Shown here piece after piece: positions 805 through 63,991 of a DNA stretch of 64,000 bases (the first letter of the stretch is position 1; every line of letters begins with the position of its first letter). A model generated the notes under the pieces. It searched no databases, had not been told where the DNA came from, and was given only the letters and a program-made list of their open reading frames with translations. The position numbers and the translations under genes are program-made. Source of the stretch: Scenedesmus sp. ARA3 (taxonomy: Eukaryota; Chlorophyta; Chlorophyceae; Sphaeropleales; Scenedesmaceae); assembly GCA_004335835.1 (NCBI GenBank), contig RWJK01001652.1, positions 48,434 to 112,433 of the forward strand, in the 5' to 3' direction.

Positions 805-3800
805 CTAGCCCGCCCACACGTCCTCCAGGTAGCGCTTCGCCTCCAGCAGCCCGCCCATCCAGCTCTCAGCAGCAGCAGCGTTGCGGCCACCACACGACTT
901 GGCCATCTCCTTGAAAGCATTGCGCACATCTGGCGCCATGCGGCGCGCATCGCCGCACACGTACACGTGCGCGCCCGCCTCAAATAGGCCCCACAGCACG
1001 GCGCCCTGCTGCAGGATCAGGTCCTGCACGTACACCTGCAGGGGGGATGTAACACGGAAAGTAACAGAGAAGGTAACAACCCTAGTCTGTGTCTGTATGT
1101 CTGCCACAGCGCGGGACCCTGCTGCAGGATGAGGTCCTGCACATACACCTGCAGGGGTGAATGTAACAGAGACAGTAACAGAGAAAGCAACAACCCTAGT
1201 CTGTGTCTGTATGTCTGCCACAGCGCAGGGCCCTGCTGCAGGATGAGGTCCTGCACGTACACCTGCAGGGCGGATGTAACATAGAAAGTAACAGAGAAAG
1301 TAACACCCTAGTCTGTGTCTGTATGTCTGATACAGCGCGGGGCCCTGCTGCAGGATGAGGTAGCCCTCCAGCTCAGCCCCAAGGCACCCAAACCCACTGG
1401 CCATCTAGCAGCTTCAAATGCCTGGCCACACCCTACAGCAGCCGTTCAAGGTCAATCTGTCGTTTAACAAGCTGCAGCAGCTGTCTCCCTTGCTCACCTT
1501 GCTGGCCCCTGGCTCCCTGCTGAAAGCGACATGCAGCCCAGCCAGCACACCACTCTTGACATAGCCCTCCAGCTCAGCCCCAAGGCACCCAAGCCAACTG
1601 GCCATGTAGCAGCAAAACATGCACTACCACTCCTGCAGGGCTTCAAATGCCTGGCCACACCCTACAGCAGCCGTTCAAGACCAATCTGTCGTAAAACGCT
1701 GCGGCAGCTGGCCCCCTTGCCCACCTTGCTGGCCCCCGGCTCCCTGCTGAAGGCCACGTGCAGCCCAGCCAGCACGCCACTCTTGACGTAGCCCTGCAGC
1801 TCGACCTCGGCAAACCAAACCGGATGGCCATCTAGCAGCAAAAAATGCACGGCAACCACTGCAGGCCTAAAGAAGCCTGCAGCAGCCGATCACTTTCATT
1901 CAACACACTGCAGCAGCAGCTGTCTCCCTTGCTCACCTTGCTGGCCCCCGGCTCCCTGCTGAATGTCACATGCAGCCCAGCCAGCACACCCAAAGCCAGG
2001 CAGCCCTCCAGCTTAACCTCAACAAACCAAACCGAATGGCCATTTCGCAGCAAAACACGCACGGCGAACTGCTGCAGGCCTAAAGAAACCTGCAGCAGCC
2101 GATCACCGCCATTCAACATACAGCAGCCACAACTGCCCCCCTTGCTCACCTTGCTTGCGCCCGGCTCCCTGCTGAATGCCACGTGCAGCCCAGCCAGCAC
2201 GCCACTCTTGACATAGCCCTCCAGCTCAGCCCTGTAGATGAAGTCCTCCACGCTGCTGCGGCAGCCAAAGAAGAGGTGCGCGGGGCCCAGGGCTGCACCA
2301 CCAGCAGCGAGTGCGGCGCGCTCCTGCAGGAAGCCCATCATGGGCGCCACACCAGTGCCTGCACAGCCACAGGTGCGGAAACCAGGTTACTTTATGGTTT
2401 AGGTATTTGGGTTACAGAGTTTCAAAGGGTTTGTGGCAGCCAGTGCGACGCGCTCCTGCAGGAAGCCCATCATGGGCGCCACGCCGGTGCCTGCACAGCC
2501 AAACGTGATGTAGGTCGGGTTTAGGGTTCCAGAGTTAGGGTGTTTGTGGCAGCGAGTGCGGCGCGCTCCTGCAGGAAGCCCATCATGGGCGCCACACCGG
2601 TGCCTGCACAGCAACAAGTGGTACAAGTATATGTGCTTTAGGGTTGCGATCAGATCAAGGGTTTGGTGGCAGCCAGTGCAGTGCGCTCTTGAAGCCCTCA
2701 TCATGGGCACGGCGCCGGTGCCTGCACAGCCAGCCGCACAGCACGCGGTCAGCGCAGCACATAGTGCCTGCAGTAGCGACTGTTGTGACGAAGCATCCAC
2801 ACACTCTCAAACATGAGGAAATGCATCAGCATGTTCGCAGTCTCCCCTCACCTGGCCCAATCATGATGACAGGCACAGCAGGGTCCTTAGGAAGCCTGAA
2901 GCTGCTGCTCAGCTTGCGCACACAGCCCAGCAGCTTGCCGCCCACAGGCGTGGCGTTGATGGTGGCTGAGGCTGCGCCCCTGTGGAGCCGCCCGCTGGGT
3001 GTGGTGAATGCCACCAGGCCCACGCTGATGCTGCAGGTGCCGGGGCGCGCCAGTGGGGAGCTGCTGATGGAGTAGTAGCTGCAGGGCAGGCAAGGCAAAC
3101 ACAGCGCAGGGATGGGTGGCAGAGGGACAAGTACGCATGGTGCTGTATGCAGGAAGTAGGCTCAGGCTGTGTATGCAAAGGAAAGGAACCACCGGGGGAA
3201 TAGCTGCGGTACACCATGCCAAGCAGAGAGCTGCTGATGGAGGCAATCATCATCATGATGGAGCACTGCTATGCGGTGCACATGGAGCCACAACCAGAGT
3301 TTTGTTATGCATCTGATGAGGTGACAACATGCATAGTTATGGCAGCGCCATTATGCAGCATGTGGCTGTCGCAGTTGCGTGCTCACCGTGGCCCCATGCG
3401 TGGCAGCAGGTTGGCCAGCTGATCCAGTGACACGCTGAGCGACTGGAACTGGCCCAGCAGCTCAACCAGCGTCAGGCGCTGACCAGACACCTGCAGCCAG
3501 CCAGCAGCAGCAGGTGTTTGACGGCCTATCGAGAACGCCTTGCCCAGCACGACACAGTACAATGAGGAACAGCAACCACAGGCAGCCAATCGAAAGCAGC
3601 ACCCAGTCTTGATCTGCTGCACTCAATCCCCTCCACTACACACATGCCCTGCCAAAGCTTCTTGAGAACAGCTCACCCTCTCCTTGTACCCCTCCTCTGT
3701 GGCCAGCTGCCTGCTGCTCTAAGCCGCGCTGCACGACAAGACTGGCGTCGTGTCCCGCGTAGCACCATGTCAGCGCTCCTTTTCTCATCAAATTCAAAGC

Positions 3801-6800
3801 AATAACGTTGTAATGCAGGACAATGATGCCAAGGAGCCGCACCTTCTCTTTGTAGCCCTCCTCTGTGGCCAGCTGCCGCAGCGCCGCAGCCTCAGGCGGG
3901 CAGGGGCAGGCCTCCGCCAGCAGCGACACGGTGCGCTTGCTGGGCACGGCAGCCAGGTCAACCAGCCACGTCAGCGCGTCAGACACTGACAGGATCAGGC
4001 TCAGGCCGCCGCTGCTGCCCAGGCTGCGCGCACTGCCGGAGCCGCCCTCAATGTTGGCGCGCCACTGCACGCGCTCCGAGCCTGCAGCCAGTGAATGACA
4101 CCAACGTGGCAGCCAGCAGAGGGCGGATGGTACAAATTGAATTAAATAGTGAATTTGCTATTTGCGTCGCTCCTTCTGTGCGCCACTCCACGCACTCAGC
4201 GCCTGCAGCGGCACCAGACAAGAACCGCATGTTAGTGAGGCAAGCAGCAGCAGGCAGGAGGAGTGACAAGCCAAGCAAAGAGCACTGCCGGAGCCGCCCT
4301 CGATGTTGGCACGCCACTGCACGCGCTCCGAGCCTGCAGAAAGCGGCAGCAGGCAAGTACCGCATGTCAGTGAGGCGGTGCTCAGCAGGCAGGAGGAGTG
4401 GGATGCCAAGCAGAGAGCACTGCAGGAGCCGCCCTCAATGTTGGCGCGCCACTCCACACGCTCCGAGCCTGCAGAACAGGCACCAGATAAGTGCCTCATG
4501 TCAGTGGGGCAGGGAGCAGCATGCTGGAGGAGTGACAAACCAAGCAGAGAGCGCTGCCGGAGCCGCGATCAATGTTGGCACGCCACTCCACGCGCTCCGC
4601 GCCTGCGACATCACCAGAAAAGTGCCGCATGTTAGTGAGGCAAGGAGCAGCAGGCAGGAGTTACAAAGCGAGCACTACCAGAGGCACCCTCAATGTTGGC
4701 GCGCCACTCCACGCGCTCACCGCCTGCAGCAGAGGCACCACACATCAACGCGCAAGACATGTTCAGGGCATGTTTGTATGGCAGCAGGCTGGAATAATCC
4801 AAGGCAAGCAAGCAGCCACGATTGCAGCTGTGAAAGATATATGTCCACGCCATCACCAAACACGTCACCACGCCCTGTCTACAGCTGAATAATGCAGCAT
4901 CATTGTGACAATCTCACTGCGACTGCCTGCTGCTCCCACCTGTCAGCCCCAGGCGCTTGAGTGCAGCCGCCACCAGGGCCTTGTCATTGTTGCCCATCAC
5001 CTCCAGGTGGTCGCCCGCGCTGTACTGCCCCGCCTCCCCTGCAGGCAGCGCCAGCTGCACGTGGCGCGTGCTGCGGCTGGCGCCGGGGCCCTGCAGCTCC
5101 CGGTTCTCCAGCACCTGCAGGCAGCAGCAGCAGCAGCAGCAGCAGGTGTTCAGTGCACAGCAGGCACATGACAGCTGCGGCTGGCGCCGGGGCCCTGCAG
5201 CTCGCGGTTCTCAAGCACCTGCAGACAGCAGCAGCAGCAGCAGCAGCAGCAGGTGGTGTTCAGCACTAAACAGGGGATGTAATGGATGCTTGCAGATGAC
5301 TGTTGCAGTACATAGGTGGAGAGGAAGACAGGCATGTGCTCACAGAGCGCGCATTGAGTGGCACCCTGTTGTTTCCCCTACGCAGCCACCTGGCTGTTAC
5401 ATGTCGTTGTGTAACAAATCGAACGGTTCTCACCTCCAGCAGGTGATAGCCGTCCGGCTTTGCAGCCCTCAGCTGCGCAATGACCGTCTCCACACTGAGC
5501 GCCTGCCCAGGCTCACTGGCCTCCAGCAGCCGCAGCTGCAGCCGAGCCTTGGCCTCGCCTACAGTAGCAGCAGCAGCAGCAGCAGCAGCGCAGCTGTCAC
5601 AGCATGTGCGTGGTGTATAAGGCGTGATGTACACGCATTGCAGTACATCGGCACCTGTACCAGGCAGGCTCATGTCAACACGCAGCAAGCTGTCGACAAA
5701 ACCTCAAACTCATGATGCTGCCGCACCTGCCGCCGCGCCGCTGTTGACTGCAGCCACGTATGCCTCTGGCGGGTTGACTCCGAACGTGACCAGCAGCCCC
5801 CGCAGCACCTCGCGCTGCCACTCGTCAAAAGCCTCCATCCAGTCGTTGCTGTCCACGTCGCTGCAGCGCATCTCCATCACCTGGGGTTTTCAAGGTGTGC
5901 ATGTTTGGCAGGCAGGGCATGCAACCACAGGTCAAGCACTCACATCAAAATCCCAAGGCGGTCAACATACTTTCATTCTGAATTGGTGTTGAGTGCAAGC
6001 AGCAGCAGAGTGGTTGGCACCAGCTGCAGGAACCGTACATATGTTGCGCGCATGGTTCCCACCTGTGTCGCGCCGGCGCGCGCCAGCCCCAGCGCCACCT
6101 GTGTGGGGAAGGCCTGGTAGGTCTGCGCCCACTGGCTGTTGCCCACACCAAACACGCTGAAGGTCACCTTGGACAGCGAGCCTGCAGAGGCAGCAGCAGC
6201 AGCAGCGCAACGGTGTTCAGCAATCAAACACCGGTCTTTCACGCTCTGTTTTGCAAGAAGCATGCTTCCATTCTTGAACGCTGCTGCTGCTGCTGCTGCT
6301 GCTGCTGAATATCTGGCTTTTTGTTCAAAGCAATGTGCAGGGCTCATCCCTTGCTCACCGTCCGCCTGCTTGGGCAGCCAGCGCGCAAACTCGGCCGCAT
6401 TATCAGGCGGCGTGCCATTGTACGTGCTGCTGATCACCAGCAGGGCCCCCGCCTCTGGCAGAGCACCGCCTGCTGGCCCTGCAGGTGTGGCCATCACACT
6501 GTCCAGGCTGGCCGTCTTGGCGGCAAAGCCTGCGGCTGCGGCTTGGCCAGCCAGGCTGGATGCCAACTCCTCACAGGTGCCTGCAGGTTGGGGGAAAAAA
6601 GCGGCAAAACATGCTCTACGGTGCAGCTGTGGCTAGCACAGAGGGCGTGGGGGTGTTGCGGCAGGCGCTTGGCAGACAGCAAGTCGCTTGACAGCTGCAC
6701 TTTCACAGACAGGCGCTGATGGTGCAGTACTACACGTGTCTCATGGTGAAGTGGTGAAGCCGCAGATAAGGGCCACAGAAGGCATCATGAACTCTGCCAG

Positions 6801-9067
6801 CAGCAGGGGCTGCTGCCATGCCCCATAAAGTGCACGCTGAAGCTTCTGCAGCAACATACTGCAGCGCAAGGCTCAGCAACGCTACTACTGCACCAACCAG
6901 CAAAAAAATAGGACACCAAGCAGTCAGTCACGAGCATGCGCAGCAAGCCTCACCTGTGTTGGAGCCGTACAGGATCAGCAGCGGCGTGCCGTGCGACGCC
7001 TCAGCCGCAGCAGCAGCGGCTGCAGGCGCGGCGTCATTCTGTGCAGCTGCAGGGGCGGCGCCCTTCTGTGCGGCTGCGGGCGCTGCTGCTCCTGCCTTTG
7101 CTGCTGCCACTTGGCTGCTGATGCTCTGCACATGCGCATGAGCACCACAGTACCACAGCCAGTGAGGCGTCAGCAGCGCATTCTCAACACTAACCCAGCC
7201 ACACTGTGTTTGGACGCGCAGGATATGCTGCAAGTTTTCAAATTCCAGGTCATGCACTGTAGCCATGTCACAAGCTGCAAACATAACGCTCGCACCTACC
7301 TCCAGGACTGCGCCGCTCTCCTTGCGCTTCCAGATGCGCAGCGCCAGGTGGTGCGGGGTGGGCGCGGCACCACCGTCAGCCGTGCTGGGCAGCGGGCGTG
7401 CAAAGCCCTCCGGCACACGGAACCTAGTGGTTGTGATGATATTCAAGGCAGCAAGCGCAGGAGCAGGCGCGAGCGGTGTGTAAATGCTGGGGTGGGTTGG
7501 GTAGTGAGCCATGCTGGGCAGCGGGCGGGCAAAGCCCTCAGGCACGCGGAACCTGGCGGGCGGGTGCAGCATGAGGGCAACAGGTGCAGGCATGTAGCGT
7601 GTCCGGCTTGGGATGAGGCGGGCTCGTCAGGTGTTGCTGGTGATGGTGGCAGTCAGTTGAGGCGCTTGAATGTGGCGCTGGTGCCGTCTGATGATACGTG
7701 GACACAGCGCGTGCTGGCTGGCCGGATGTGAGTTGGCAGCAACAGCCGCGAATAAAACAAGGCAGGCGTCCCAGCAATGCCTTGCTTCATGCAGCTTCCT
7801 ATTTGCAGGCATCCTTCTGCAGTTGGTTTGTTGCGTTTTTTGCATCAGTAATCAGCCAGTGCTGCAGCTCACTTGAAGCAGCGCAGCACCATGCACAGGA
7901 AGAGCTTGCCCTCCCACAGCGCAAACTGGCTGCCGATGCACGCGCGCACGCCAAAGCCCCACGGGTTGAACGCGTTGGGGTGGCGGCCACTGGCCTCCGC
8001 AGCACCTGGCCGCGCAGCAGCAGCAGCAGCAGCAGCAGCAGCGTGAGGGACATGATATCGCCAAATTAATGAAGCCAGGAAGCAGCACAGGCACCTTGCT
8101 TGCACAGAGCTGGACACATGCATGGGTTGACGTAATCTGTCTGCCCAGGCGCTTGCACCACCTTCAACCTTCAAGCACATGGCATGAAGCGCTCCAGGCT
8201 ACAGCGGTTGGTTCACCAAACAGCACGAGCTGATCACTCAAAACACTCAACTGCAGTACAGCGCATGGCTGGGTCAGCCGCACCTGGCATGAAGCGCTCA
8301 AGGCTACAGCGTTGCGGTCTCCAAACAACACCAGCTGGTCACTCAAAGTATCCTGTTTCACCAAAGCCGCACCTGGCATGAAGCGCTCGGGGTTGTAGGC
8401 GTTGGGGTCCCCGAAGCTGCCTCCCCACTGGTCCTCACGCCGCTGCAGCGCCACGTTGTTGATGTCCACGCGCTGACCCTTGCGCACAAACCAGGTGCCT
8501 GCACAGGTGGCACAACAGCGCCAGCACATAGCAGCACAAAAACAAGGTATCAGCATCAGCTGATACGTCACAACATGCAGCATGTCCACGCGCTGACCCT
8601 TGCGCCACAAACCAGGTGCCTGCAAGGCAAGGTGTACAGCAGCACCGCGGCGCAACAATTTGCCTGAGCAGTCACCAGGCTGACAGATGTGTGACAAGGT
8701 CGTATGTGGCAGCAGCTGCTACAGGTGGCAGACAGGTCAACTGACCATCAAGTGTGGTGTCAGCATTCACAGTGGCTGTGCCTAATGCGGCCTGTCAGCT
8801 GTCAACAATGTACCCCGCAGCTCATCAGTCATAATTTGTGGCATGACAGACGCATAAGCACATGTTTTGGCTCACCCTTGAGTGTGGTGTCAGCATACAC
8901 AGTGGCATGTATCTCGCAGCTTATTTGTCGCAAAATGTGGCAACACGAAGGCAGCTGCTGTTGCTCACCCTTGAGTGTGGTGTCTGCGTACACGTCGCGC
9001 GTGACTGTGCCCACTGCGGGGTGCAGCCGCAGCGCCTCCCTGAAGCACGCCTCAAGGTACAACTGGT

Positions 9068-9099
<32 letters not shown>

Positions 9100-12000: not shown

Positions 12001-14052
12001 TGCCGCTAGCAAAACAGGTTCGTAATTTGATAAAAAATGTGTGGTGTCCTGGTTGCGTTATAACATAGTTCAAAACCAATCAATAGTCACCTTTGGAAAA
12101 TCCTCCTGGCGCGCCAGCAGCTCTGCCACCACCTCAGGGTCACACGTGGCAACAGCATAGTCCAGCAGGCCGGGCTGCACGTCCTGCAAAAACAAAGTGA
12201 CCACAGCAGAGTGAAGACATTGCAGCGGCAGAAGAGGGCCACCAGGAAAAGGGTCGGGGCTGACAGCGCAGAGCAGCATGCCATGATCACTCTGCAGGTG
12301 CTGGCTGCATGCCTTGGCAAGAGGCATTTGCAGGCACTGCAGGCAGAGTGTGGAGCTGTGACGGCACTGCACATGAACTCAGCCTATCAGGCTGACAAGA
12401 GTTCAAAAAAAATTGCGCCTCAAGAGTGTGCCAGCTGCGCCCGTGACCCTGCCCTGCCCAGTGAGCTGCGTCCTGCCAAGTGCTGCCAGCACCACCAGCA
12501 CTGAGCTGCTCCCTCCTAGCATGCTGCTGCTGCTGCTGCTGCTGGCATCTGTATACTGCCCGCGGCCCACCTCGAGCACCTCCCCTTCAGGCCCATTTGA
12601 GCCCGGCAGCAGCAACAGCACTGTGCAGCGCTATGTTCACCTTCTGCTGCTGCTGCTGCTGCTGGCATCCATGCAGTGAGCTCACCTTGAGCACCTCCCC
12701 ATCAGGCCCACCCGAGTGTGGCAGCACGATGAGCACCGTGTCGCCCCACACAGCACGCTTCTCAGGCGCAAACACGTTGGCCGCAAAGTTGTATGCGGGG
12801 TGACCCCGCCCGCCCTGCTTGTACAGCAGGAAGCTGCCTACCAGTGGCAGCGGCTTGGGCCCTGGTCAAACGCGGTCAACCACAGCATAACATGTTACTA
12901 CTTGTCACTTTGTGCTGTCATATTTCATCATGCGCTGCCGCCCAGCACTGGAGTCCAAAGAGATGCTGCGCAAAGGCTGCATGCAGCATCGTGCATGGTC
13001 CGTCAAACTTTTCCAAGCTACGGTCAAGCAGATAATATTACCTGCAGGAATAGGCAGCAGCTTTGGGGCCTGCTGTGCTGTGCTGCTGAGCGGCTGGCTG
13101 TCTGCAGTGGCCAGCAGCAGCAGCACGCCTGACACGCGCAGCGCGGGGCTGGCCAGGGCTGCTGCCAGCTCAGCTGAGCTGCTCAACTCAGGCCTGCCCT
13201 CAGCCTGAGGAAGCATAGACACACATGCAGCAGCAGCAGCAGCAGCAGCAGCAGAGCTCAGTCGGATGGGGTGGAGTGTTGAACAGAAAGAAGCACATGC
13301 CTGTGGAGGTTGTCTGATGAAGTTTTAGTGGTCATCCAGGAAAGGCAGTCTTGCAGGTGTCAGGGGTGGGGCAAGGATGTTTGCAGTCGGTTGCAGCGGT
13401 TGGCTGGTGCAGGCGAGACAGCTGCACATGGGATGCATGTGACAGCAATACATCATGAAAGTAGGTGGCCACTGCACCCAAACGGCTGCAAAAACCTTTG
13501 AAGCAGCAGGCGTGGTGGTGGTGGGCACCACACTGCTGCTAATTAGGCAAACCCTGACAAGCAGGTGCTGCAGGTGCTGCTGCAAACTGGTGCTGTTATG
13601 GACTGTAAGGAGAGCAGTTGAAGCAAGCTTACTAAAGGCCACACATGCATCACTCTTGAGCAATGGTTTGGCCATACAGTAGCGAACACAGCAAGCAAAG
13701 CAAGCAGCAGCTGATGCATGACAGGTGAGTGGGTAGTGACTCTGCTGCTGCATGCTACTGCTCCAAGGCACTATCGCTAGTGCCTCATGCCTGCCTCCCG
13801 CAGCCACCAACACACCTGCTCAACGAACAGCCTGCAATCTTCTATGTGCAGCTTTTCCTCCACTTGGCCCTTCAGCTCGTCGATGCTTTCGCACTTGCCC
13901 AGGTGGATGCCATTTTTGCTGCCATCCAGGAACACCACCACCCCTTGCTCACACGTAATCTTGTTTGTGTACACATATGCAGCTGCTCCTGCTGCCGTGG
14001 CAGCAAGAGCTGCACCGGCCAGCAGGCCGGTCTTGCCTTCAGGTAGTTGCAT
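805..14052 (-). CDS. Self-sufficient cytochrome P450-NADPH reductase fusion (P450 BM3/CYP102-like)
   Basis: A heme monooxygenase and its diflavin reductase in one chain; by family it would hydroxylate fatty-acid-like substrates with NADPH. ATG at 14050-14052; TAG at 805-807. Exons with agreeing phases include 13816-14052, 13042-13204, 12686-12861, 12091-12183, 11832-11877, 11367-11470, 11000-11131, 10742-10833, 10270-10411, 9854-9974, 9432-9574, 8969-9062, 8373-8498 and 7873-8005. Order: novel N-terminal extension (about 130 residues); PLPLVGS; C-helix GNGLFTSSTLDKDW; I-helix AGHETTAAT; ExxR EALRLHP; PERF; heme loop WGFGVRACIG. An Ala/Gln linker leads to FMN LLILYGSNTG, FAD YYSISSSP and NADPH GTGVAPMMGFLQER with C-terminal DVWAG, as in BM3. 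Trp replaces the conserved Phe before the Cys ligand. Many introns hold exon-edge duplications. The fusion is certain; exact junctions in the reductase half are not. Confidence 0.9.
1035..1365 (-). repeat. Exon-edge echoes of the last reductase exon (113-114 bp period)
   Basis: The 5' edge of the final exon (YVQDLILQQG, true copy near 1000-1040) with its CTGCAG acceptor is repeated upstream near 1095-1150 and 1210-1265, with a truncated copy at 1335-1360. The period is 113-114 bp. Each complete copy keeps the acceptor and about 45 exon bases, then runs into copied intron. Confidence 0.85.
1440..2010 (-). repeat. Exon-edge echoes of the NADPH-domain exon 3' end
   Basis: The exon 3' end encoding YVKSGVLAGLHVAFSREPGASK with its donor (true copy about 2140-2225) recurs downstream three times. 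A fixed landmark (CCTTGCTKGC on the plus strand) falls at 1498, 1724, 1937 and, in the true copy, 2149. Periods are 212-226 bp. Copies diverge by point changes and small indels. Confidence 0.85.
2445..2740 (-). repeat. Exon-edge echoes of the NADPH-binding exon 5' end
   Basis: The exon start encoding GTGVAPMMGFLQER (true copy about 2320-2365) with its acceptor is repeated upstream at about 2451-2505, 2565-2615 and 2685-2735. The period is about 112-134 bp. The most distant copy is the most degraded. Confidence 0.85.
4175..4740 (-). repeat. Five upstream echoes of a FAD-domain exon 5' edge
   Basis: The exon start encoding ERVEWRANIEGG (true copy about 4040-4083) with CTGCAG acceptor recurs upstream near 4187, 4305, 4440, 4575 and 4695. 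Period is about 115-135 bp. Each unit also carries copied intron with a GGCAGGAGGAGTGACAA-like segment. Confidence 0.85.
5110..5250 (-). repeat. Exon-edge echo and two (CAG)n tracts before the FAD-binding exon
   Basis: One upstream copy (about 5173-5222) of the exon start encoding VLENRELQGPGASRS (true copy about 5065-5115). On the coding strand each copy is directly preceded by a (CTG)7-8 run that ends in CCTGCAG or TCTGCAG, so the triplet run sits where a polypyrimidine tract is expected. Confidence 0.8.
7378..7554 (-). repeat. 129-bp in-frame duplication of an AGGT-containing coding segment (candidate new intron)
   Basis: A coding segment of about 48 bp (RFRVPEGFARPLPS) occurs at 7507-7554 and 7378-7425, exactly 129 bp apart. 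Each copy begins, on the coding strand, with AGGTTCCG. Splicing from AG|GT of the upstream copy to AG|GT of the downstream copy removes 7424-7552 and leaves one copy. The 129 bp are also open in frame, so non-spliced mRNA would gain 43 residues. Confidence 0.75.
8180..8335 (-). repeat. Downstream echoes of the PERF-motif exon 3' edge
   Basis: The 3' edge (YNPERFMPG plus GTGCGG donor, true copy ending at 8373) recurs downstream at about 8186-8235 and 8285-8345. Several substitutions have accumulated. A separate single upstream echo of the same exon's 5' edge lies at 8581-8625. Confidence 0.75.
8745..8910 (-). repeat. Downstream echoes of the ExxR exon 3' edge
   Basis: The end of the exon encoding YADTTLKG with its GTGAGC donor (true copy 8969-9000) recurs at about 8873-8905 and in degraded form at about 8747-8780. 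Direction is again downstream of the exon. Confidence 0.7.
10622..10660 (-). repeat. Single downstream echo of a P450 exon 3' edge
   Basis: A copy of the end of exon 10742-10833 (CAGCTGCCCAGCGCCGACT on the plus strand) lies about 115 bp downstream of the true exon end. A similar single echo of the exon 12686-12861 end (EGEVLEV) lies at about 12570-12610. Confidence 0.65.
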
Positions 14053-46605: not shown

Positions 46606-46637
<32 letters not shown>

Positions 46638-47194: not shown

Positions 47195-47268
47195 GCTTTG
47201 AAGGCAGCGATGGGCCGCGGCTGCTGGACAACTTTGAGGCAGAGCTGGCAGCATTCCACAGCCCCTAG
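47195..47268 (+). repeat. Echo of the K+ channel's last codons beyond its stop
   Basis: About 55 bases encoding GSDGPRLLDNFEAELAA copy 46980-47035, placed 150-220 bases after the stop. This is the mirror image of the echo beyond the P450 stop at the left end of the window. Confidence 0.9.
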
Positions 47269-47331: not shown

Positions 47332-47332
<1 letters not shown>

Positions 47333-47656: not shown

Positions 47657-47689
<33 letters not shown>

Positions 47690-52696: not shown

Positions 52697-52734
<38 letters not shown>

Positions 52735-53258
52735 GTGCATGGTGTTTGCTAAAGCCACAGGCTCAGCCAGGGGTGTCTTGACGCTTTTCAGAGGCTGCTC
52801 AAATGCACAGCTACAGGTGGCTCTTCCGGCATGCCGCTGCTGGAACCACGACACACTCAGAGCAGCTGCATGTCCGGGGTCAGCTGCTGGAGCTGGAGCT
52901 TGAGTTGCTGCTGCTGCTGCTGCTGCTGTCAGCTCACCGGAGTCGATGATGCAGATGAGCATGCCCTTGTCATCGGTGCGGTTGGTCAGCTTGCTGCTGG
53001 TGGCCTGAATCTGTGCAATACCGTACGGCTGCAGGCAGGAGGGCAACGCAAAGCAGACACTTGTCAGCTGGTGCGACTGACAGGTCTCAGATGCTTGGTG
53101 TACGCTGCTGCTGCTGCTGCTGCTGCTCTGCTGAGCAGGGCATGCCATGGGGGACACAAAACAGGTGACACCACCCAAAGCAGCCCCACAGCACTGCTCA
53201 CCTGATACTCCGGCACTGGACTGTCTGACAGCGGTATGCTCCTATCCTTGCATTCTGC

Positions 53259-53295
<37 letters not shown>

Positions 53296-53654
53296 GCTGC
53301 TGCCTTGGCGCCACCTGGCCCCTGCTGCTGCTCAGCAGTAGGCAGGTGCATGTAGCGCGGCAGGTCCTGCTCTGCATACTGCACGCCTGGCCAGCTGCGG
53401 GCCCTTTCTAGCAGCTTTTCTACTTTAGCTGACTGTAGCTGAGTTTTGCCCTGACTCCTGAGCACCGTTAAGCCGGGTGTTTGTGCTACCGGCAGTAGTT
53501 TGAGTCTGCTGGCCTGCTGGACCACCGCAGCTGCGGCATCTGGATTGTGTTTAACAATGATCCGTTGGCAGTAAGTTTGGGGGTATACGATCGCTAAAAG
53601 CAGCAGTGTCACCGCGAAGCAGTGTTGGCCTTTGCTTCGACTGCAAGTCCTCAT
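48913..53654 (-). CDS. Secreted subtilisin-like serine protease (S8) with PA-type insert
   Basis: ATG 53652-53654 with signal peptide (CFAVTLLLLAIVYPQTYC), then an I9-like propeptide (RIIVKHNPDAAAAV ... WPGVQYAEQDLPRY) and a Gln run. Catalytic Asp is in MLICIIDSG (exon about 52936-53035); His in LVGHGTHVAG (exon 52392-52523); oxyanion Asn in VASSGNNGS and a long exon 49810-50773; Ser in GTSMAVPHVTG (final exon 48913-49197), stop TAG. Between Asn and Ser lies a roughly 200-residue insert with CGTGSAPCPEAKDSICMV and AKAMLVANPP, resembling a protease-associated domain, with a Gln/Ser loop. All four key residues are present, so an active extracellular or vacuolar protease is likely. Echo copies surround five exon edges, including one that repeats the Ser motif. 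Confidence 0.88.
49198..49560 (-). repeat. Upstream echoes of the catalytic-Ser exon (120-bp identical units)
   Basis: The true exon edge encoding VGAYKYLSGTSMAVPHVT lies at 49141-49197. Copies occur at 49261-49317, 49381-49437 and, degraded, about 49505-49560. The blocks 49143-49262 and 49263-49382 are essentially identical over 120 bp, which implies very recent duplication. The unit is open in frame (40 codons). Confidence 0.95.
50840..50910 (-). repeat. Upstream echo of the oxyanion-Asn exon 5' edge
   Basis: Copy of the start of exon 49810-50773 (EAIKRGDILFVASSGNNG) about 125 bp upstream, with three to four substitutions, including Lys to Asn. Confidence 0.85.
51440..51540 (-). repeat. 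Downstream echo of a subtilase exon 3' edge
   Basis: Copy of GDVNQGQGLVYGSTVILAFTQC-coding sequence (true exon about 51640-51822), roughly 195 bp downstream, about 85-90% identical by eye. An upstream echo of the same exon's 5' edge lies at about 51963-52040. Confidence 0.85.
52238..52278 (-). repeat. Downstream echo of the catalytic-His exon 3' edge
   Basis: A degraded copy (reads AGHGAHVAG) of the LVGHGTHVAG exon end (true copy about 52392-52425), about 140 bp downstream, donor region kept. Confidence 0.7.
52693..52732. repeat. (CTG)n microsatellite in a subtilase intron
   Basis: About 12 CTG units on the plus strand, CAG on the coding strand, in the intron between the Asp and His exons. 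A second run (52902-52927) lies just after the donor of the Asp exon. Confidence 0.9.
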
Positions 53655-55042: not shown

Positions 55043-55985
55043 CTACCCCCTTCCGCCCATGAGCTGCTGCAGGCCGCCCGACTGCATCAGCTGCTGCAGC
55101 ATGGCCTGTGCATCAGGCCCGCTCATGCCCTGCAGCATACCAGCCAGGTCAGCGCCACCTGGCATCATGCCGCCCTCCTCCTCCTCCTCCTCCTCCTCGA
55201 TCTCAATCTCCTCCTCGGCGCCCTTGCGGGAGCGCAGCCGCCTGCAGGACGAGCAGCATCAGCAGCAGCAAGGGCGTTTTAAAGGAGAGCGCTGCATGTC
55301 ACCATCAGCATGATGTCCAGCCTGGCGCACACTGCTGACTGTGTAGGCCAACGGGAGCTGCTGCAGCAAGCTGTCCCAGCTGCACAAACAGCTCAACAAA
55401 CATTGCATGCACAGAGCTCTGTACGCCTGGACCACATTGCTCATTGTGTTGTTGACGCACACAATGTATGTATCTTTGTGATGTCATCACGCACACGCAC
55501 TCAGCCGCGCACCTGATCCAGTCCTTAGCGTAGTTCACGAAGGGCAGCAGCAGCAGCCAGCTCAGCTTCCAGTCGCGCGCAGAGAACACGTTCATGTCCA
55601 CGTGCATGATCTCGCCGCCTGCAGCAGCAAAGAAACACAAAACAAGTGCGAGTATGATGGAAAGGTCCAGCAGCAGAACACGTTCATGTCCTCGTGCATG
55701 ATCTTGCCACCTGCAGCAGCACATCAAACAAACAAACGAACACACAGCATGCGATTACATGGCTCGAGGTCCAGGAGCAAGACGCGTTCATGTCCACGCA
55801 TGTGACCATAACACAGTTTGTAACGCACCTGACACCCAGTCCACCTCCACGCCCGCGGGGTAGCCGCCAGGCAGGTCAAAGTCGTAGGCCAGTGCAGTGG
55901 CCCAGCCGCCGATGGTGGATGACTCATCCTTGGTGCGCTCCTGGTACCAGTCAAAGTTCATGGCCAGGCCCTGAAGGTTGAGTCG

Positions 55986-56020
<35 letters not shown>

Positions 56021-56339
56021 GCAGCAGCAGCAGCAGCAGCAGCGGCAGTGTAAGGCAGGGTTAAAAAAAACCATTCAGCAAGGCGTGCAATGTTCACCAT
56101 GATGCAGCAGTTGGGGAGTCACAAGGGTTTGAAAGCCTGCAGAGGCAAAGCGGCAGGCTCTGCACACAACGTGCGCTAACTGGCTAGCAGCATGCCAGAC
56201 ATGCCAGGTGCATGAAACCAGCATTGAACCAGCAATGAATTTCAGCTACCAAGCCTGCTCACCGGGATGTAGTCGTACAGCACGAAGGCGCGTGCCCCCC
56301 AGCCCTCATCGCGCCCCCCCATGGGCGTCTCGCCGCGCA

Positions 56340-56381
<42 letters not shown>

Positions 56382-59300
56382 CAGTTGGCCAGTGATCAGA
56401 TGACGATGCACATGCATCAAATTAGATGCGAGCTGCTTAGCCGTTCACCTAATGCTAGCCGTTTACCTAATGCTGACCAAAGCTCGTTCTGCATGTCCTT
56501 CCACCCGGCCTTGACCACCAGTGCACAAGCGTCTACCAAGAACCTTCTGGGCAGCTTCTCCCCTTCTTCAAAACATCATCATACAGCACACACATGACAT
56601 TAGCCGCTCACCTGCGCCGCCACTGCCTCAACCTTGAATGGTCCAGCGCGCATCGCCTCCTGCAGCATACCCAGCTCCATGCCCCGGAAATTACACGACA
56701 AAATGCAGCAGCGTGTGCATGGAAAAGCAGAACAGCCTCACCTGCGCCGCCACTGCCTCAACCTTGAAAGGCCCCACCCGCATCGTCTCCTGCAGCCGCA
56801 CGCCCACGCCCACGGGCCCCTTGCGGATGTGCCCGCCCTCCGCCATGCGCGTCAGCATCAGCCCGCAGCCCGCGTGGTCGTTGCCGGTGAGCAGCCCGTC
56901 CTGTGTAGTGTGTATGCAGCACGCAGCAAGGCAGCAAAGCAGCAGAAATATGCGTCAGCTGGGCGAGTCGTGGTTGCTTTGCAGAGCACAACCTGCAGCG
57001 CTTTCCACCTGCACTTGTTGAAATGCACATTGAGCAGCAGCGTCGAGCATGAGCAGCACTCTGTGCCATGCTGCTGCTAGTTCTGCCTGCCCAGTTCCAA
57101 ACCTTACAGATGTTAGACCTCCTGCGTGTACAGCAGCATGCAGTGCCCAGCAACAGCAGCGGCACGCATTGCGAACTGACGGCAGCAGCCCCCACACCCC
57201 CGGTCACCTTGAAGGTGTTGACCTCCAGCGTGTACAGGATGTCCTTCACATTGGGACGCAGCAGCTCCAGCGCGCCACCAACCTGCAGAAAAGCGAAAGT
57301 TGTTTGCAGGTTTTGTTCAAGTGTCTACAAGGGGCAGTGCAATGTAGGACAGCAGCAGACCCTGCTCCAGAAATGCTTGCAGCAACTCGCAAACGACACA
57401 TGCCCGCATGCATCTGACTGCATGCTGGCAAGCCAAGCTTGTAATTGCAAAAGCAATCTCACACAATTATTCAGTGTTACATATATATAATGACATTGCA
57501 TTTGACATCAGACATTGTTTACAATGTGCGTGACGCGGCGGCTGCTGAATGGCACCACGCTGTGAATGACGCTGGCGTTGGCCTCACACCATGCAGACAA
57601 TATGTTTTTTGTAGCATGCTATCATTACATGTGTCATCGTGCAATCCCACCTGGGTGACGTGGCGGCTGCCGAATGGCGCCACACTGTGCACGATGCTGG
57701 CGTTGGCCTCAGCCTGCAGGCAGGTGGTAGTCTTGTCCTTCTCAATGGTGGCGGTCACGTCCAGGGGCACACCACCCCAGCCGTCCCTGTTGAAGGGCTG
57801 GGCGCTGTACTCGGCAACGAAGCCTGCAGCAGCACAAAATGGGCAAGATGAGGCGTGCATTAAGTGTTGGGGCTTTGTGGTGAGGTACAACACGGAGTTG
57901 GGGGTGGTGGTGAGGTGAGACAACAATTTTGGTGTTTAGTGGCGACATAGGCAAGGATTCAGGGTTGGTGGTCTTGTCCTTCTCAATGGTGGCAGTCACG
58001 TCCAGGGGCACGCCGCCCCAGCCGTCCCTGTTGAAGGGCTGGGCGCTGTACTCGGCAACGAAGCCTGCAGCACGGTGCATGTTGGGTACAGTCGTTTAGG
58101 GATTTGTCAAGAGGTCTGATAGAGGGTTGAGGTCGTGGTGACGCCTGACAAGGGTACATGCACTCAAGGACAGCCACCGAAAGCCGGGATTTTGCAACTG
58201 GATTTCTTGGCACCAACTCAGATACGTGGCAGCTGCTTCTACCATAACCGTGATTCAAATGTTATCCACCCGTGATGGCATCTTTGTGCTCGAAGCCGTA
58301 GTAACCCGGTGTGGGTATGATGCTTATGGGGCTGTCAGCAAAAAAAACCCAAATCCCCTAAAACCCTTGACCTCAAACCCAGTGCTGAACCCTCACCCGT
58401 GATGGCGTCCTCGTGCTCGAAGCCGTAGTAATCCAGTGTGGGCATGATGCTCACGGGGCTGTCAGCCACCACGTACTGGTAGCGGTGGTCAGTGTTGTCC
58501 TCAGGGTCAAAGCTGGGGCCCAGGTCCAGCCCCTCTGCCACGTAGCCCTGCAGCACAGAATAACAGAATAACAAGTTAGTAACAATAAGATGTTATCATG
58601 CTGTATGTTGCCATCCTCAGGGTCAAAGCTGGGGCCCATCTTCAGCCCCCCTGCCACATAGCCCTGCAGCACAAATTCAACTATAATGGTTACGAAGTGG
58701 CATGTTTTCATTCACAGTGCAAAGCACCGTCATCAGCATCAAACGCTGGGGCTGAGGCCCAGCCCTTCTTCCACGTAGCCGTGCAGCAAATGTGGGAGTA
58801 ACACAATTTGAAAAAAATTGCCGTTATCATAGTAGCATGCTGTCATTGAAGGTGCAAGCGGGAATCCTCCGGGTCATAAGCTGGCCCAGGTCTGTCCCCG
58901 CAGCGACGCCTTTGTCCCAGACGCCACCTCAACAATCCTTCTGCTTTTACCTTTCACCAGCAATCCTTGTGCTTTAACCGTAGCAATACCCACAAAACCT
59001 TCGTGCTAAGCCCCAAACCCTCATAAGTGCTCAAAACCGCACCTCGTAACCGTACGCCGCCAGTGTCTCGATCTCCTCATTGTCGTAGGCCTCCCTGTAG
59101 GCCTTCTTGGCCTTGTCCAGCCGCCGCAGCCAGGCGCCGTACTCCTTCTGCGCGCGAGGGTCGCCCTGCTTGGCCATTGCCAGCATCAGCTTGTAGTAGC
59201 TGCGGCAGGTGCGGCAAACAGTTGAACCAATTTGATGCAGCAGGTGAAAGCCTGGAAAACAGGGAAGGCGGACAGGTGAAACAGAGCATGCGCCGCCCTG

Positions 59301-61622
59301 CTGGGCCAAGGCCAGCATCAGCTTGTGGTAGCTGCAGGTGGCATAGACAGGACAAAAATAGAAACAAGTAAAACAGGGAAGATTGACAGGTGACTACAAC
59401 TGCTGCATTGCCCTGCTTTGCCAAGGCCAGCATCAACTTGTAGTAGCTGCGGCAAAACAGGTGGAAACCATGCCGTTCGCACACCTGAATTGTACAGTTG
59501 TACGTTTCACGGGAATAACATGTTACATAACAGTGCTCGCGTGTGCCTGAACTCCTCGGCCTCATCATCGTCTGTCTCTTCGCCAAAGGGATCCTCCGGC
59601 ACCGCCCATGCATCCGGCTTGGTCACTCCCTCCACCAGCCAACATCAGGCGACATAACACAAACATAACATGTTACATAACAACTCACATGTGCCTGAAC
59701 TCCTCGGCCTCCTCGTGTCTGTCTCTGCGCCAAAAGGATCCTCCGGCACCGCCCACGCATCAGGCTTAGTTACACCCCCAACGCCAACATCAGACGATAT
59801 AACACACAAATAACATGTCACATAACAACTCACATGTGCCTGAACTCCTCCGCCTCCTCGTCATCTGTCTCTGCGCCAAACGGATCCTCAGGCACCGCCC
59901 ACGCGTCCGGCTTGGTCACTCCTTCTACCAGCTGCTCCACAAAGTAGCTGGTGGGCGGCAGCCGGCTGCGCATCATCTGCTTGAACATGTCCTGCGGGCG
60001 TTTTATAACATGTTACATAGGCAGTGGCAAAGCATTGTGAGTGAGTGGCAGGGCAGCGGGGCGAGGTGGTGGGCGCAACGCCTTGCCAGCAGCTGGGGCT
60101 GAGCTGCCGGCCATGCATTCCTTGCTGCACACATGCTCATGCAGCCTTTCCCCAGCATCAACTGGCACATGACGTGTGCAGCACACTGCAGAACAGAAGA
60201 TGGTCCTTCTGCAACACTGCGGCTCTCCCCGCGCACCTGCTGCTTGGCGCCGCCCGCCGCCTTGCCCTTGGCTGCCTTCTTCTGCAGCAGCTCCTGCGCG
60301 CTCTCGTAGGCGTGCAGCCCCAGCAGCATCACCAGCAGGTTCTGGCGCCACGGCACAGCGCTCAGGCTGAGCATGCCCACCTGGTGAATTGAAACAGTGA
60401 GAAAACACAGTGCTTTAGTGGGATCTACTGATACATAGACAGAGAAGTAGCATTTGTGTGTTGATGCAGCATCACCAGCAGCTTCTGGCGCCACTGCACA
60501 GCGCTCAGGCTGAGCATGGCCACCTGGCGGAAACATCAAGATGACAAGGACGTTAAAAAACTGAAGTGGGGTTTCGACCGGCGAGCGCTATGCTGAGGCA
60601 AAGCTCTGCAGGGGCTCCTGTTGCTGGTTGGTCTTGAGGGATCGCACCATCACACCAATCAGATGTTGTTCAGGACAGTTGAGGACATTTCTACCACCAA
60701 GCCAGCTGCGCATGCCCACCTGGTCGAAGATGAGCGGCTGGCCAGAGGCGCTGCGTGGGCACTGCAGCAGCAAGCAGCAGCAATGGCAACAGAAGAAATG
60801 GCAGGTCAGTGTACACGGTTTACATGATGTGATTAGCTAGCTCAGCTCTGCATGACGGCCACCACAGATGCCACCAGAGGCTAATTCTTACCAAACAACA
60901 AAGACAGAAAGCAAACTCAGGTCAGCATTCATGGGGGTGCGCAGTTGCACTCCCCACGCCTGCGCCCGACCTTCAACCCTCTTGCCCGACCATGTGATTG
61001 CTGCTGGGCTCAACCCAGACCAGCCACTCATGTCGGGGTGCAGATCCACCATGTGCAAGGGCGTGGCAACTGCACTCATTGACGATGCTGAACCCGCATG
61101 TAACGCACCCTAAACCTTGAACCACTGTTACATAACAACACTCATGTCGGGGTGCAGGTCCACCAGGTGGAAGAACGTGCGCAGCTGCACTCCCTAACAT
61201 ATCGACTCCTTCAAAACCCACACTATTCAAACCACTGTTACATAACAACACTCACGTCTGGGTGCAGGTACACCAGGTGGAAGGGCGTGCGCAACTGCAC
61301 TCCCAGAAACATACTGACCCGGTAAAACCCCAGATTCTCAAACCACTGTTACATCACAACACTCACGTCTGGGTGCAGGTACACCAGGTGGAAGGGCGTG
61401 CGCAGCTGCACTCCCGAAAACATACTGACCCGGTCAAACCCCAGATTTTCACCAACCACTGTCACATAACATCGCTCACGTCTGGGTGCAGGTCCACCAG
61501 GTGGAAGGGTGTGCGCAACTGCATCTCGCCCGCAGCTTGGCGCAGGATGTTCTGCAGGATGTTGCGCCGCTGCTTGCTGACAGCAGCATACTCCTTGCCC
61601 AGCTTCTCGCGCGCTGCGGGGT

Positions 61623-61653
<31 letters not shown>

Positions 61654-62314
61654 GCAGGTGCAGGCACAGCAGTGCTGGTGAGGGGAGCAGAGGGAGGGGA
61701 CTGGCTGGGAGATGCCAGATGCACTTGCATGTAAGCTGTGCACGATACAGTGAGCGTGCACGGCTAAACTTATGCTGTGTCATCATGTTACGCACGTAAT
61801 TGTTCTGTTCGCGCACCTGCCGTGAGCTACCACTACTCACAATCGTGGCTGTCACAACGAAAGCCCAGGGTGAACTTTTTGCTAGTGTCTCTGGATTTCC
61901 AACACAAATCACACCCCTCGCCCCGCACCTCCGTTGGCGTGTGTGAGCACCACCAGCGTCTGCTTCCACACATTCTGGCCCAGCGTGGCGGTGATGTTGC
62001 TGAGCAGGCTCATCTCACCAAAGCCTGGCCGAGCAGCGTCCAGCCTGGAAACAGGCAGGATCAACAGCAATGGCAGGAAAAATGCAAGCAAGCAGTGCGC
62101 AGCGTGGCAGCGACTTTGCTCAGGAGCAACATCTCACCGAAACCGGGGCGCGCAGCGTCAAGCCTGCGGCCACAAGGTGCGGCAGCAAGCAGTAAGCGCC
62201 AACAATCACGGGCTCAAACGTTTCCCACACGCGCGCCAGGTGGTTTGTGTTGCACATGAAGTCCTGCTCCCTGCTGCAACCCTCCAGCTGTTGCTGTTGC
62301 TGCTGCTGCTGCTG

Positions 62315-62348
<34 letters not shown>

Positions 62349-63991
62349 AAAAGCAAGACAAGACAGCTGCAGCAGGCGCACCTGTCCGCGTAGAGCACAA
62401 AGTGCGGCTTGCGCGCACTGCCAGCGGGTGGCCTCCAAGGCGCAGCCAAGACATGGAAACTCAAGCCACAGCGAAGCAAAACACAGCTATTGCGCCGCAC
62501 CTGTCGACATACAGCACGAAGTGGGGCTTGCGCGACTGGTAGGCGCGCTTGATGGCCTTGAGCGTGCTGCGGTTGGCGGACTGCGCGTCGCTGCTGGCCA
62601 GCAGCCCGGGCGTGTCAATGGCAGTCAGCGACACACCTGCAGCAGCAGCAGTGGCGGTCGAGAGAATGTGTTGGAAGCCGCATGGAGTCACTCAAGGTGG
62701 TCGACGCCAGGAGCAGCACGGCCAAACACATCCCGTTGCAAAAGCATGCTCTGCTTGCTTCTGCTGATGCCGCTGCTTGACTGCCAGATCCATCCTCAAA
62801 GTATGGTGTTTATGAAGGAACAATGCTTAACAGGCTCTGCGCACCTGCCACGTTGCCCTTGACAACGCGCACGCGTCGTGTGCTGTCCCTGAAGGCGCTG
62901 GTGCTCAGCACGGGGCGGCCCATCAGCGAGTTGATCAGCTCGGACTTGCCTGCAGAAAACAAGCACAGAAGATAACAAGGTGATAACACAGCACATAACA
63001 GGGTGACGACACAGCACATGACACAGAAAAGCATCACAGCAGTGCTCAGCACGGCGCGGCCCATCAGCGAGTTGATCAGCTCAGACTTGCCTGCAGTTAG
63101 CAAAGTGACATACAAGTTGACAGGGTCTGAACACAGCATACGTAACACACAGTGTAAAGGAGCATTGCACACTGTGTGCCCAGAGGTCGCAATTCAGAGC
63201 TGAGATGCCACATTTGCAGCACACGGCATAATAGCGTTGGGAAACGGCTGCACACCAACGGTCAAAACACGCCCTGTCCAGCTGACAAAGCTGACAAAGC
63301 TGACAAAGTAGCAGCAGCAGCTGCAATATCTTCAAAACGCACCTGTGCCAGTCATGCCCACCACCATGATGTGCAGGTTGCTGCCCACCAGTGCATGGCA
63401 GCATTCATTCCTTGCATCAAAACAGTTGCAGCAAGCCCTGCGACGCTGATGCACGCACCTGTGCCGGTCATGCCCACCACCATGATGCGCAGGTTGATGC
63501 CCAGAGAGGAGTCGGGCGCCTCGCGCTCGTTGCGCTCCTACAAGCAGAGAAGATTGTGCGGACGAGAGTGGACGGGCAGGGCCGTCAGACAACAGAGGAC
63601 CCAAGGCATCAGGCAGTGATATTGTAGCGGTGGGAGCTCGTCCCTGGAACAGCTACGGTGCCACAAGCAACATGGCTGACACCCAGCTACTGGTTCCTGC
63701 CCTGCTATCACATGCCACGGCCTCCTGCAGTGCCAGCTTGCGCGCATCACCCTCCAGTACACAACACAGCTGCCGCAGCAAACATTCAAGGTGTGGACAC
63801 ACCATGATCCCTGTACCCAAGACGGCCTCCTGCAGCGCCAGCTTGTTCATGTACCCCTCCACGACAAGGAATTGCGCCAAACTAAACCTTCCGCCGTACT
63901 GAACCCTAAACACCAGCTCTACACCCACCATGGCCTCTTGCAGCGCCAGCTTGTTCACATCACCCCTCGCCCGTGCCAGTGGCGCCTGCAC
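55043..63991 (-). CDS. Toc159-type chloroplast protein import receptor GTPase (N-terminus beyond window)
   Basis: Outer-envelope receptor that binds preprotein transit peptides using GTP. The gene continues past the right edge. G domain: GINLRIMVVGMTGTG|GKSELINSLMGRPVLS, a P-loop split by an intron (63459 to 62945); Walker-like IDTPGLLASSD (about 62600) with KPHFVLYVDR; and the Toc-type LGQNVWKQTLVVLTHANG (about 61950-62040). Then ILRQAAGEMQLRTPFHLVDLHPD, GQPLIFDQ, an acidic linker (DPFGAETDDEEAEEF) and the membrane domain: LGPSFDPEDNTDHRYQYVV, GFVAEYSAQPFNRDGWGG, LLTGNDHAGCGLMLTRM, FDWYQERTKDESSTIGG. The C-terminus has an EEEIEIEEEEEEE stretch, then MQSGGLQQLMGGRG and TAG at 55043-55045. A Glu-rich run at this end is unusual; the acidic domain of plant Toc159 is N-terminal. 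About fifteen exon edges carry echoes. Confidence 0.85.
55650..55805 (-). repeat. Upstream echoes of a Toc159 membrane-domain exon 5' edge
   Basis: GGEIMHVDMNVF-coding start (true copy about 55580-55622) recurs at about 55670-55715 and, truncated, 55775-55800. Confidence 0.85.
55987..56044. repeat. (CAG)n tract before a Toc159 acceptor
   Basis: About 18 CAG units with one interruption; on the coding strand this is (CTG)n placed shortly before the CTTCAG acceptor of the GLAMNFDWYQ exon. A comparable run at 56343-56381 abuts the next acceptor upstream. Confidence 0.9.
56612..56672 (-). repeat. Downstream echo of a Toc159 exon 3' edge
   Basis: Copy of QETMRVGPFKVEAVAAQ-coding sequence and its donor (true copy about 56738-56792), about 126 bp downstream. 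Confidence 0.85.
57515..58080 (-). repeat. Echoes flanking one Toc159 exon on both sides
   Basis: The exon at about 57652-57827 (GFVAEYSAQPFNRDGWGG ... VAPFGSRHVTQ) has its 3' edge echoed downstream at about 57520-57595 and its 5' edge echoed upstream at about 57965-58075. The 5' echo is about 95% identical by eye over 100 bp. Confidence 0.9.
58262..58800 (-). repeat. Echoes flanking the next Toc159 exon on both sides
   Basis: True exon about 58395-58550 (GYVAEGLDLGPSFDPED ... GFEHEDAITG). Its 3' edge is echoed downstream at 58265-58345. Its 5' edge is echoed upstream at about 58612-58670 and 58730-58790, with a further remnant near 58860. Confidence 0.9.
59285..59770 (-). repeat. Echo clusters in one Toc159 intron, one from each flanking exon
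   Basis: SYYKLMLAMAKQG-coding 5' edge (true about 59160-59205) is echoed upstream at about 59300-59335 and 59415-59455. In the same intron the 3' edge of the preceding exon (PFGAETDDEEAEEFRHM, true about 59830-59900) is echoed downstream at about 59690-59765 and 59540-59610. The two arrays grow toward each other. Confidence 0.9.
60975..61425 (-). repeat. Four downstream echoes of a Toc159 exon 3' edge
   Basis: The exon end encoding LRTPFHLVDLHPDV plus donor (true copy about 61483-61530) recurs at about 61370, 61250, 61140 and 61030, each with the intron word ACCACTGTTACATAACAAC. Period about 110-120 bp. An upstream echo of another exon edge lies at 60465-60530. Confidence 0.9.
62095..62420 (-). 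repeat. Two single echoes around the Toc159 G domain
   Basis: About 62100-62165 repeats the 5' edge of the LDAARPGFGEMSLL exon (true about 61990-62047). About 62380-62420 repeats the 3' edge of the SRKPHFVLYVDR exon (true about 62503-62545). Confidence 0.85.
63035..63385 (-). repeat. Echoes of both halves of the split P-loop
   Basis: In the intron that splits the P-loop, GKSELINSLMGR(A/P)VLS is echoed upstream at about 63040-63095 (true 62895-62945), and LRIMVVGMTGTG is echoed downstream at about 63341-63380 (true 63451-63510). Near the window edge, NKLALQEA is echoed at about 63826 and 63716 (true about 63940). Confidence 0.9.

Follow-up and report, generated by a model that had tools for sequence, protein, structure and literature searches.

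We analyzed a 64,000-bp stretch (the window; G000:C1256:48434-112433) of the genome assembly of Scenedesmus sp. ARA3, which comprises 87.27 Mb in 1567 contigs. Window gene names were partly taken from motifs and are what we presume the genes to be. A P450-NADPH reductase fusion gene lies at 820..13988 (minus strand); its exon model came from a gene finder, its spliced model matches protein P0005 at 98% over 100%, and its 3' end may extend below 820. The exon model of a voltage-gated K channel gene at 39919..47268 (plus strand; last exons uncertain) was based on the gene finder and proteins P0001 and P0002. It matches the protein of record Sobl393, with about four aligned residues differing. 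Downstream of it, the stretch 48090-48320 is cysteine-rich and resembles by eye a MYND-kind zinc finger. The exon model at 48913..53394 (minus strand; gene finder and related loci) belongs to what we take, from a motif, to be a subtilisin-like protease gene. A Toc159-like GTPase gene at 55047..63537 (minus strand) has 17 exons in its spliced model, which equals P0125 of Tetradesmus obliquus at 100% (rounded) over 716 aa, one residue differing. The K channel and GTPase matches place the genome in T. obliquus or very near to it. CAG/CTG triplet runs are common in introns across the window and are present in coding stretches too.

In these four genes, exon edges are repeated together with their splice sites in the adjoining intron, and we call such copies echoes. 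The P450-reductase gene (minus strand) has single echoes of donor edges 12686 (12571..12625), 8969 (8876..8900) and 3843 (3677..3711), and of acceptor edges 8498 (8583..8619), 7423 (7504..7552) and 5114 (5174..5218). Two echoes of acceptor edge 2358 lie at 2436..2603, three of acceptor edge 1035 at 1104..1374, and an array of four echoes of acceptor edge 4081 at 4282..4723. Echoes of the donor side near 1937 occupy 1498..1937; the modelled exon 1937-2071 is a copy itself. In the K channel gene (plus strand), two echoes of acceptor edge 41390 (41146..41318) consist of nearly identical 122-bp units. Single echoes belong to donor edge 41563 (41616..41668), acceptor edge 42573 (42462..42515), donor edge 42717 (42791..42877; a further copy at 42929-43024 was miscalled as an exon by the gene finder) and acceptor edge 46372 (46171..46225). 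An array of six echoes of acceptor edge 43959, each copy different and with incompatible sites, covers 43179..43894, and three echoes of donor edge 44171 lie at 44208..44644.

The subtilisin-like gene (minus strand) carries three echoes of acceptor edge 49197 (49263..49558; unit 120 bp) and single echoes of acceptor edges 50773 (50847..50901), 51299 (51333..51380) and 51797 (51964..52013) and of donor edge 51635 (51440..51539). In the GTPase gene (minus strand), single acceptor-edge echoes were found for 55618 (55671..55710), 57823 (57962..58064), 60380 (60466..60523), 62044 (62097..62163) and 62949 (63042..63090). Single donor-edge echoes belong to 56742 (56612..56666), 57651 (57526..57597), 58397 (58270..58339), 62501 (62382..62419) and 63459 (63343..63387). 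Two echoes each were seen for acceptor edges 58547 (58609..58780) and 59199 (59294..59446) and donor edge 59834 (59541..59777), and four, in units of about 111 bp, for donor edge 61480 (61032..61414).

Edges were counted in one genome and 21 sequences: the window and, from each of 20 random contigs, bases 10,001-20,000 (fewer where the contig was shorter), together 233,957 bp. A home-made gene finder was trained on these sequences with general splice motifs as seeds. The typed seeds stayed a small part of its splice model, which converged on donor CAG/GTGAG and acceptor CTGCAG/G (the slash marks the junction). Its models, present in 18 of the 21 sequences (the window and 17 of 20 stretches), contained 292 introns no longer than 2500 bp. 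Exon models are the gene finder's own, independent proteins having been used as a check for three genes only. Two models fuse neighbors (P450 with AAA, GTPase with subtilisin), and at least two exon calls kept in the models are echoes themselves; 46 predicted exons were discarded as echoes. The strict edge test used 60 exon bases and a score of 44, the looser test 150 exon bases and a score of 40.

In the strict test, 96 of 584 edges were echoed, versus 1/584 with the reverse complement and 0/584 with shuffled sequence as controls. The looser test gave 109/584 echoed edges with 166 copies, 1 to 6 an edge. Acceptor and donor families numbered 56 and 53, and 90 of the 292 introns contained echoes. 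A first-pass annotation of the window had described about 40 echoed edges in four genes and proposed comparing introns with their flanking exons. This comparison confirmed the echoes (36/184 window edges) but not their restriction to four genes, since the random-contig stretches had a similar density (73/400). Within the window, 10 echoed edges fell in the P450-reductase gene (one of them, 1937, being a copy mistaken for an exon by the gene finder), 7 in the K channel, 14 in the GTPase and 5 in the subtilisin gene. In the looser test, no echoes were found in the window's kinase gene (0/22 edges) or thioredoxin-like gene (0/14), and the AAA part of the first, merged gene model held none of that model's ten echoed edges; the kinase and AAA neighbors had already been described as almost echo free. 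Echo density was uneven among genes (chi2 85.9 versus 28.7 permuted, 0/2000 permutations as high).

The repeats are local. Self-comparison of the window and the 20 stretches, with a cutoff of 50 bits, found 253 direct repeat pairs no more than 700 bp apart; the following two bands of 700 bp held 7 and 4. Among the window's direct pairs (n = 77), none was separated by 2-10 kb and 2 by more than 10 kb, a distribution different from that of introners or mobile elements. A genome search with one stretch matched its own locus only, among the best candidates. When pairs near genes were labelled (253; at least 40 bits), 81 ran from intron to acceptor edge, 72 from donor edge to intron and 29 from intron to intron, 20 of the latter being echo to echo. 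Wrong-way pairs numbered 6/253 (five intron to donor, one acceptor to intron), purely exonic pairs 2/253, and pairs with both edges of an exon in both copies 12/253; the remainder had mixed labels.

Direction was scored in 231 internal exons of at least 60 bp. Copies of 5' edges lay upstream in 38 cases and downstream in 1, and copies of 3' edges downstream in 41 and upstream in 3. Of these four exceptions, two are copies miscalled as exons by the gene finder. These counts agree with the direction rule formulated at first pass, but the rule is mostly geometry: whichever copy is continuous with the exon body is by definition called the exon. Because a junction-crossing duplication can only look this way once the fused copy is the exon, the rule is no independent evidence of an active mechanism, and we rejected it as a sign of one. 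The initial thought of a further mechanism or role was sensible, though on grounds different from those first offered. The nearest copy was spaced at 100-150 bp in 73 of 109 families.

Echo units are arranged head-to-tail. Step length was constant within an array (mean difference 7.8 versus 18.7 permuted, 0/2000; 30 arrays) and differed between arrays, as in minisatellite-like loci. Since the units are head-to-tail and of fixed length within an array, tandem duplication is their source. The recent cases at 41390 and 49197 are whole-unit tandem duplications in which the intron half is identical. In lower-scoring cases, the recognized intron half is still about the period minus the exon part, with more gaps. 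An intron-like element inserted between copies was rejected: for periods <170, GT...AG at both spacer ends was not seen by eye.

These data can be read as plain tandem duplication followed by neutral decay, in which splicing skips the extra copy, a frozen exonic copy prolongs recognizability, and odd substitutions reflect unequal mutation rates. From this reading, the direction and the balance of acceptor and donor families follow, and the recent copies at 41390 and 49197 agree with it. It also bears on the preference for exon edges, as 109 edge families were found versus 9 purely intronic pairs, 8 of which lay within genes. A placement model predicted that 44% of duplications would be confined to introns and that 30% would span an edge and include 25 or more exon bases. 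By the intron half alone, 15/109 families were visible, so that the excess falls to 15 versus 8; arithmetic from the placement model then gives about 17-22 expected intronic pairs versus the 8 seen. Much of the edge excess is thus a visibility effect, and the remaining bias is two- to three-fold. Given the results below, we regard neutral decay by itself as possible but rather doubtful.

Among the few purely intronic arrays, one at 21372-21512, in an intron of the thioredoxin-like gene, has a 35-bp unit repeated four times (97% matches). Light-harvesting paralogues provided further observations. In L050:1-2401 (G000:C1476:10800-13200), an exon that is continuous in the paralogues L048 and L049 is interrupted by an additional intron, about 248 bp long, which contains a repeat pair of about 62 bp. 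The latter two are tandem paralogues; one of them carries a purely intronic duplication with a period of about 104 bp, of which the other has a single copy, and their alignment ends at the stop codon. No shared echo by which arrays could be dated was found among the light-harvesting paralogues compared.

Two gene products lack the extra copies. The spliced P450-reductase model has 24 exons and encodes 1162 aa in one open frame, and P0005 (1300 aa) aligns along all of it with every edge present once; the contigs of P0005 are at most 4480 bases, a size that suggests a transcript origin. The GTPase model without echoes corresponds to P0125 along its whole length, again with each edge once, and P0125 is an annotated protein from an independent assembly (6.1-Mb contig), not RNA. 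On the evidence of these two products, a contig of transcript size and an annotation, the extra copies appear to be skipped in splicing. A different situation may exist in P0018 (T. obliquus OEZ85_011289), a paralogous P450 protein, 46% identical, from an assembly with a 7.6-Mb contig. It contains an in-frame 24-aa repeat (residues about 84-132) that is missing from three aligned relatives and is placed at an exon junction of the window gene. This may be an echo annotated as coding and hints that such copies occur there too.

Although apparently untranslated, the copies carry a translated history. Exon halves had a mean identity of 90% to the exon (variance 0.00221 versus a binomial 0.00180), and echo-exon differences at codon positions 1, 2 and 3 amounted to 6.8, 5.2 and 17.6%. 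Single-base codon differences comprised 452 synonymous and 217 nonsynonymous changes and 5 stops, an omega-like ratio of 0.21 (0.17-0.25) in 97 of 109 families. The 12 families left out were one of low complexity, one with a mis-called exon and others with too short an exon beyond the copy. In 29 families at protein-validated window edges, the ratio was 0.23 (0.17-0.33). Echoes contained 6 stops in 2988 codons, versus 14.9 expected if neutral at the position 1 and 2 rate.

Families with at least two echoes (n = 37) allowed the exon and echo branches to be separated. Branch lengths (positions 1+2 / 3) were 0.014 / 0.075 for the exon and 0.040 / 0.096 for the echo. Single changes on the echo branch were 120 synonymous, 88 nonsynonymous and 2 stops, versus 59, 146 and 4.9 if unconstrained. 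The omega-like ratio was 0.08 (0.02-0.16) on the exon branch and 0.29 (0.16-0.49) on the branch of the most similar echo, where neutral non-coding duplicates are expected near 1. Simulated neutral echoes, with ages that we chose, gave 0.56 pooled and 0.96 (0.48-1.52, 20 runs) on the most-similar-echo branch with the same code. The third-position excess also held for the same base (C, 0.086 versus 0.045). Both results argue against plain neutral decay. Serial snapshots of the exon that then evolve neutrally were rejected as well: by arithmetic on the branch lengths, they need an exon replacement rate equal to the neutral rate and a synonymous rate several times neutral.

The coding-like pattern could also mean that echoes are used, as alternative exon ends or as splicing elements that need exon-edge sequence plus a splice site, and are under selection. 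Echoes without a recognizable intron half keep consensus sites (AG in 36/43, GT in 28/38), and by reading, the slow-changing stretch stops about where the splice-site consensus stops. However, P0005 and P0125 contain no echoes, and the presence of stops speaks against a coding role today. Alternative coding ends were rejected, as periods show no bias to multiples of three (31, 26, 39) and the 93 alignment gaps between echo and exon are mostly of 1-2 bases (81/93; multiples of three, 9/93). Copies with such short gaps still look constrained (0.33 versus 0.20 in gap-free copies). Constraint should moreover tie exon-half identity to the age of the intron half, which it hardly does (see below). 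Use of the echoes is therefore improbable in our view.

If both halves of a unit aged together, similar exon halves should come with recognizable intron halves. Across exon-half identity classes, the fraction of copies with a recognizable intron half was nearly flat (0.32, 0.29, 0.28, 0.42 and 0.33), whereas the neutral model predicts a rise from 0.29-0.39 to 0.90-0.96. Among long, very similar copies, the intron half was recognizable in 4/8, versus 0.87-0.92 in the neutral model. The neutral prediction that intron halves age with exon halves held weakly: nearest copies with a recognizable intron half were slightly more similar (0.926 versus 0.901). The two halves are thus largely, yet not fully, decoupled, and the exon half says little about a unit's age. 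Renewal of the exon half fits this decoupling better than constant constraint or simple ageing.

The neutral simulation also failed on recognizable intron halves (0.68-0.70 versus 0.32 observed), on gaps per copy (1.4-1.8 versus 0.56) and on the ratio of third to other position differences (1.5-2.0 versus 2.9). The simple explanation offered at first pass, junction-crossing tandem duplications that survive because splicing skips the copies while exonic ones are removed, hence keeps its duplication step, the apparent skipping and the rarity of exonic pairs, but its neutral predictions on omega and gaps fail.

The amino acids in the echoes provide a further view. At edge 4081, three of four echoes encode Glu, as does P0005, where the exon has Gln. 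At 1035, all echoes encode Pro-Ala, as in P0005, and the exon Ala-Val. At 41563, the echo encodes Gln like P0001 and the exon Leu, and at 3843 the echo follows the exon. By reading, these four clean edges show the relative's residue in 10/12 position-copies where the exon differs. When all edges were used, poor alignments included, the echo equalled the relative at 15/41 positions where the exon does not. Among 131 residues differing between echo and exon, the relative had the exon's residue at 104, the echo's at 15 and neither of the two at 12, so most changes are private to the echo. These 104/131 private changes, with the 0.926 versus 0.901 similarity above, lean toward plain neutral duplication. 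Site pairs that conflict with a tree-like history of the copies numbered 40/71 versus 6.2 simulated (1/300 simulations as high), which hints at exchange; of these incompatible pairs, 37 of the 40 came from one array (43959) of 12.

Strain-specific residues might also result from the assembly, if pieces from diverged haplotypes or strains had been fused at exon edges, where haplotypes remain alike, leaving the second allele's edge in the intron. Such a mosaic would account at one stroke for the coding-like differences, for residues specific to a strain at some sites and for intron flanks that are unrelated, and the nearly uniform divergence of the exon halves agrees with it. But unit length is array specific, not technical, and as many as six copies, all different, occur at one edge. 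N runs were few in the 21 sequences: one in the window (209 N, 26544-26752), one of 50 N (L003) and a single N (L005); with its single run in the window, an artefact at gap edges was rejected. For the three stretches tested, the best candidates in the genome included no second copy. In addition, the GTPase model equals the protein of an independent assembly, and the repeat in P0018 hints at copies in another one. We consider an assembly mosaic unlikely.

The explanation that breaks the fewest observations, and that we tentatively prefer while judging it somewhat less than probable, is that junction-spanning tandem arrays are tolerated by splicing and that functional exon alleles renew their exon halves. 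The first step would be the tandem duplication, across a splice junction, of a unit of about 85-150 bp that is part exon edge and part intron. Duplications would be tolerated because splicing takes the copy attached to the exon and drops the others, which lets arrays last and expand. In each unit, the intron half would then drift freely. The exon half may be overwritten again and again with functional edge sequence, by unequal exchange or gene conversion with the exon, most likely with exon alleles of diverged haplotypes. Exchange would be limited to the exon half because only the exon is still similar enough to recombine. Tandem units, coding-like differences, largely decoupled decay and the lack of the copies in two products are observations; the exchange and the allele pool we infer.

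Several results speak against renewal from exon alleles. With 37/40 incompatible pairs in a single array of the 12, direct evidence of exchange is thin, and at most differing residues (104/131) the relative sides with the exon. The decoupling is incomplete, and the 93 gaps, 9 of them multiples of three, represent real non-coding decay too. The explanation requires diverged haplotypes, for which the differences observed are those between proteins (P0005, 98%), and tracts of about 50 bp are unusual for gene conversion. A stronger version appears distinctly unlikely to us: introns would be a standing archive of splice-ready alternative exon-edge alleles, and archive and exon would swap roles by recombination, cassette-like. 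If true, exon edges would be overwritten from, and stored into, the intron, with splicing tolerance maintaining the cassettes.

The echo pattern was not described among the literature matches listed. Internal gene duplication, reportedly treated by Gao and Lynch in 2009, and tandem exon duplication share with echoes head-to-tail coding copies within a gene. Echoes, however, mostly copy an exon edge and not a whole exon with both edges (12/253), and the copy is missing from the checked products. Minisatellite arrays with concerted evolution are similar in having a unit length fixed per locus, here with an edge plus one to six copies and a hint of exchange. Unlike minisatellites, echoes are anchored at splice junctions, with an exon half that is coding-like and near the exon and an intron half that drifts.

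Intron gain by tandem genomic duplication turns an exonic segment with AGGT into a new intron (PMC3443670). It resembles the echoes in being a local tandem duplication in genes that is harmless through splicing. By contrast, the echo unit spans a junction that was already there, makes the present intron longer and is found repeatedly, in arrays; duplicated segments within exons were rare (exon-exon 2/253, versus 81 intron to acceptor and 72 donor to intron). For human coding sequence, tandem alternative splice sites are described, in which duplicated sites lie 3-9 nt apart (PMC2279118). Echoes likewise place duplicated splice sites close together, but at a spacing of about 120 bp and mostly with 25-100 copied exon bases.

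Echoes mislead gene prediction: 46 exons predicted here were removed as echoes, and the in-frame repeat of one public protein may be such a case. With near-identical splice sites spaced by about 120 bp, they also allow site choice by the spliceosome to be tested in a natural setting. If exon halves do exchange with exons, the arrays would be a record of past exon alleles, and recombination at exon scale would become measurable. Echo arrays are also a route for harmless intron lengthening. By a rough sum, they make up about a fifth of the sampled intron length (23,577/116,183 bp) and so help set gene structure in this lineage.
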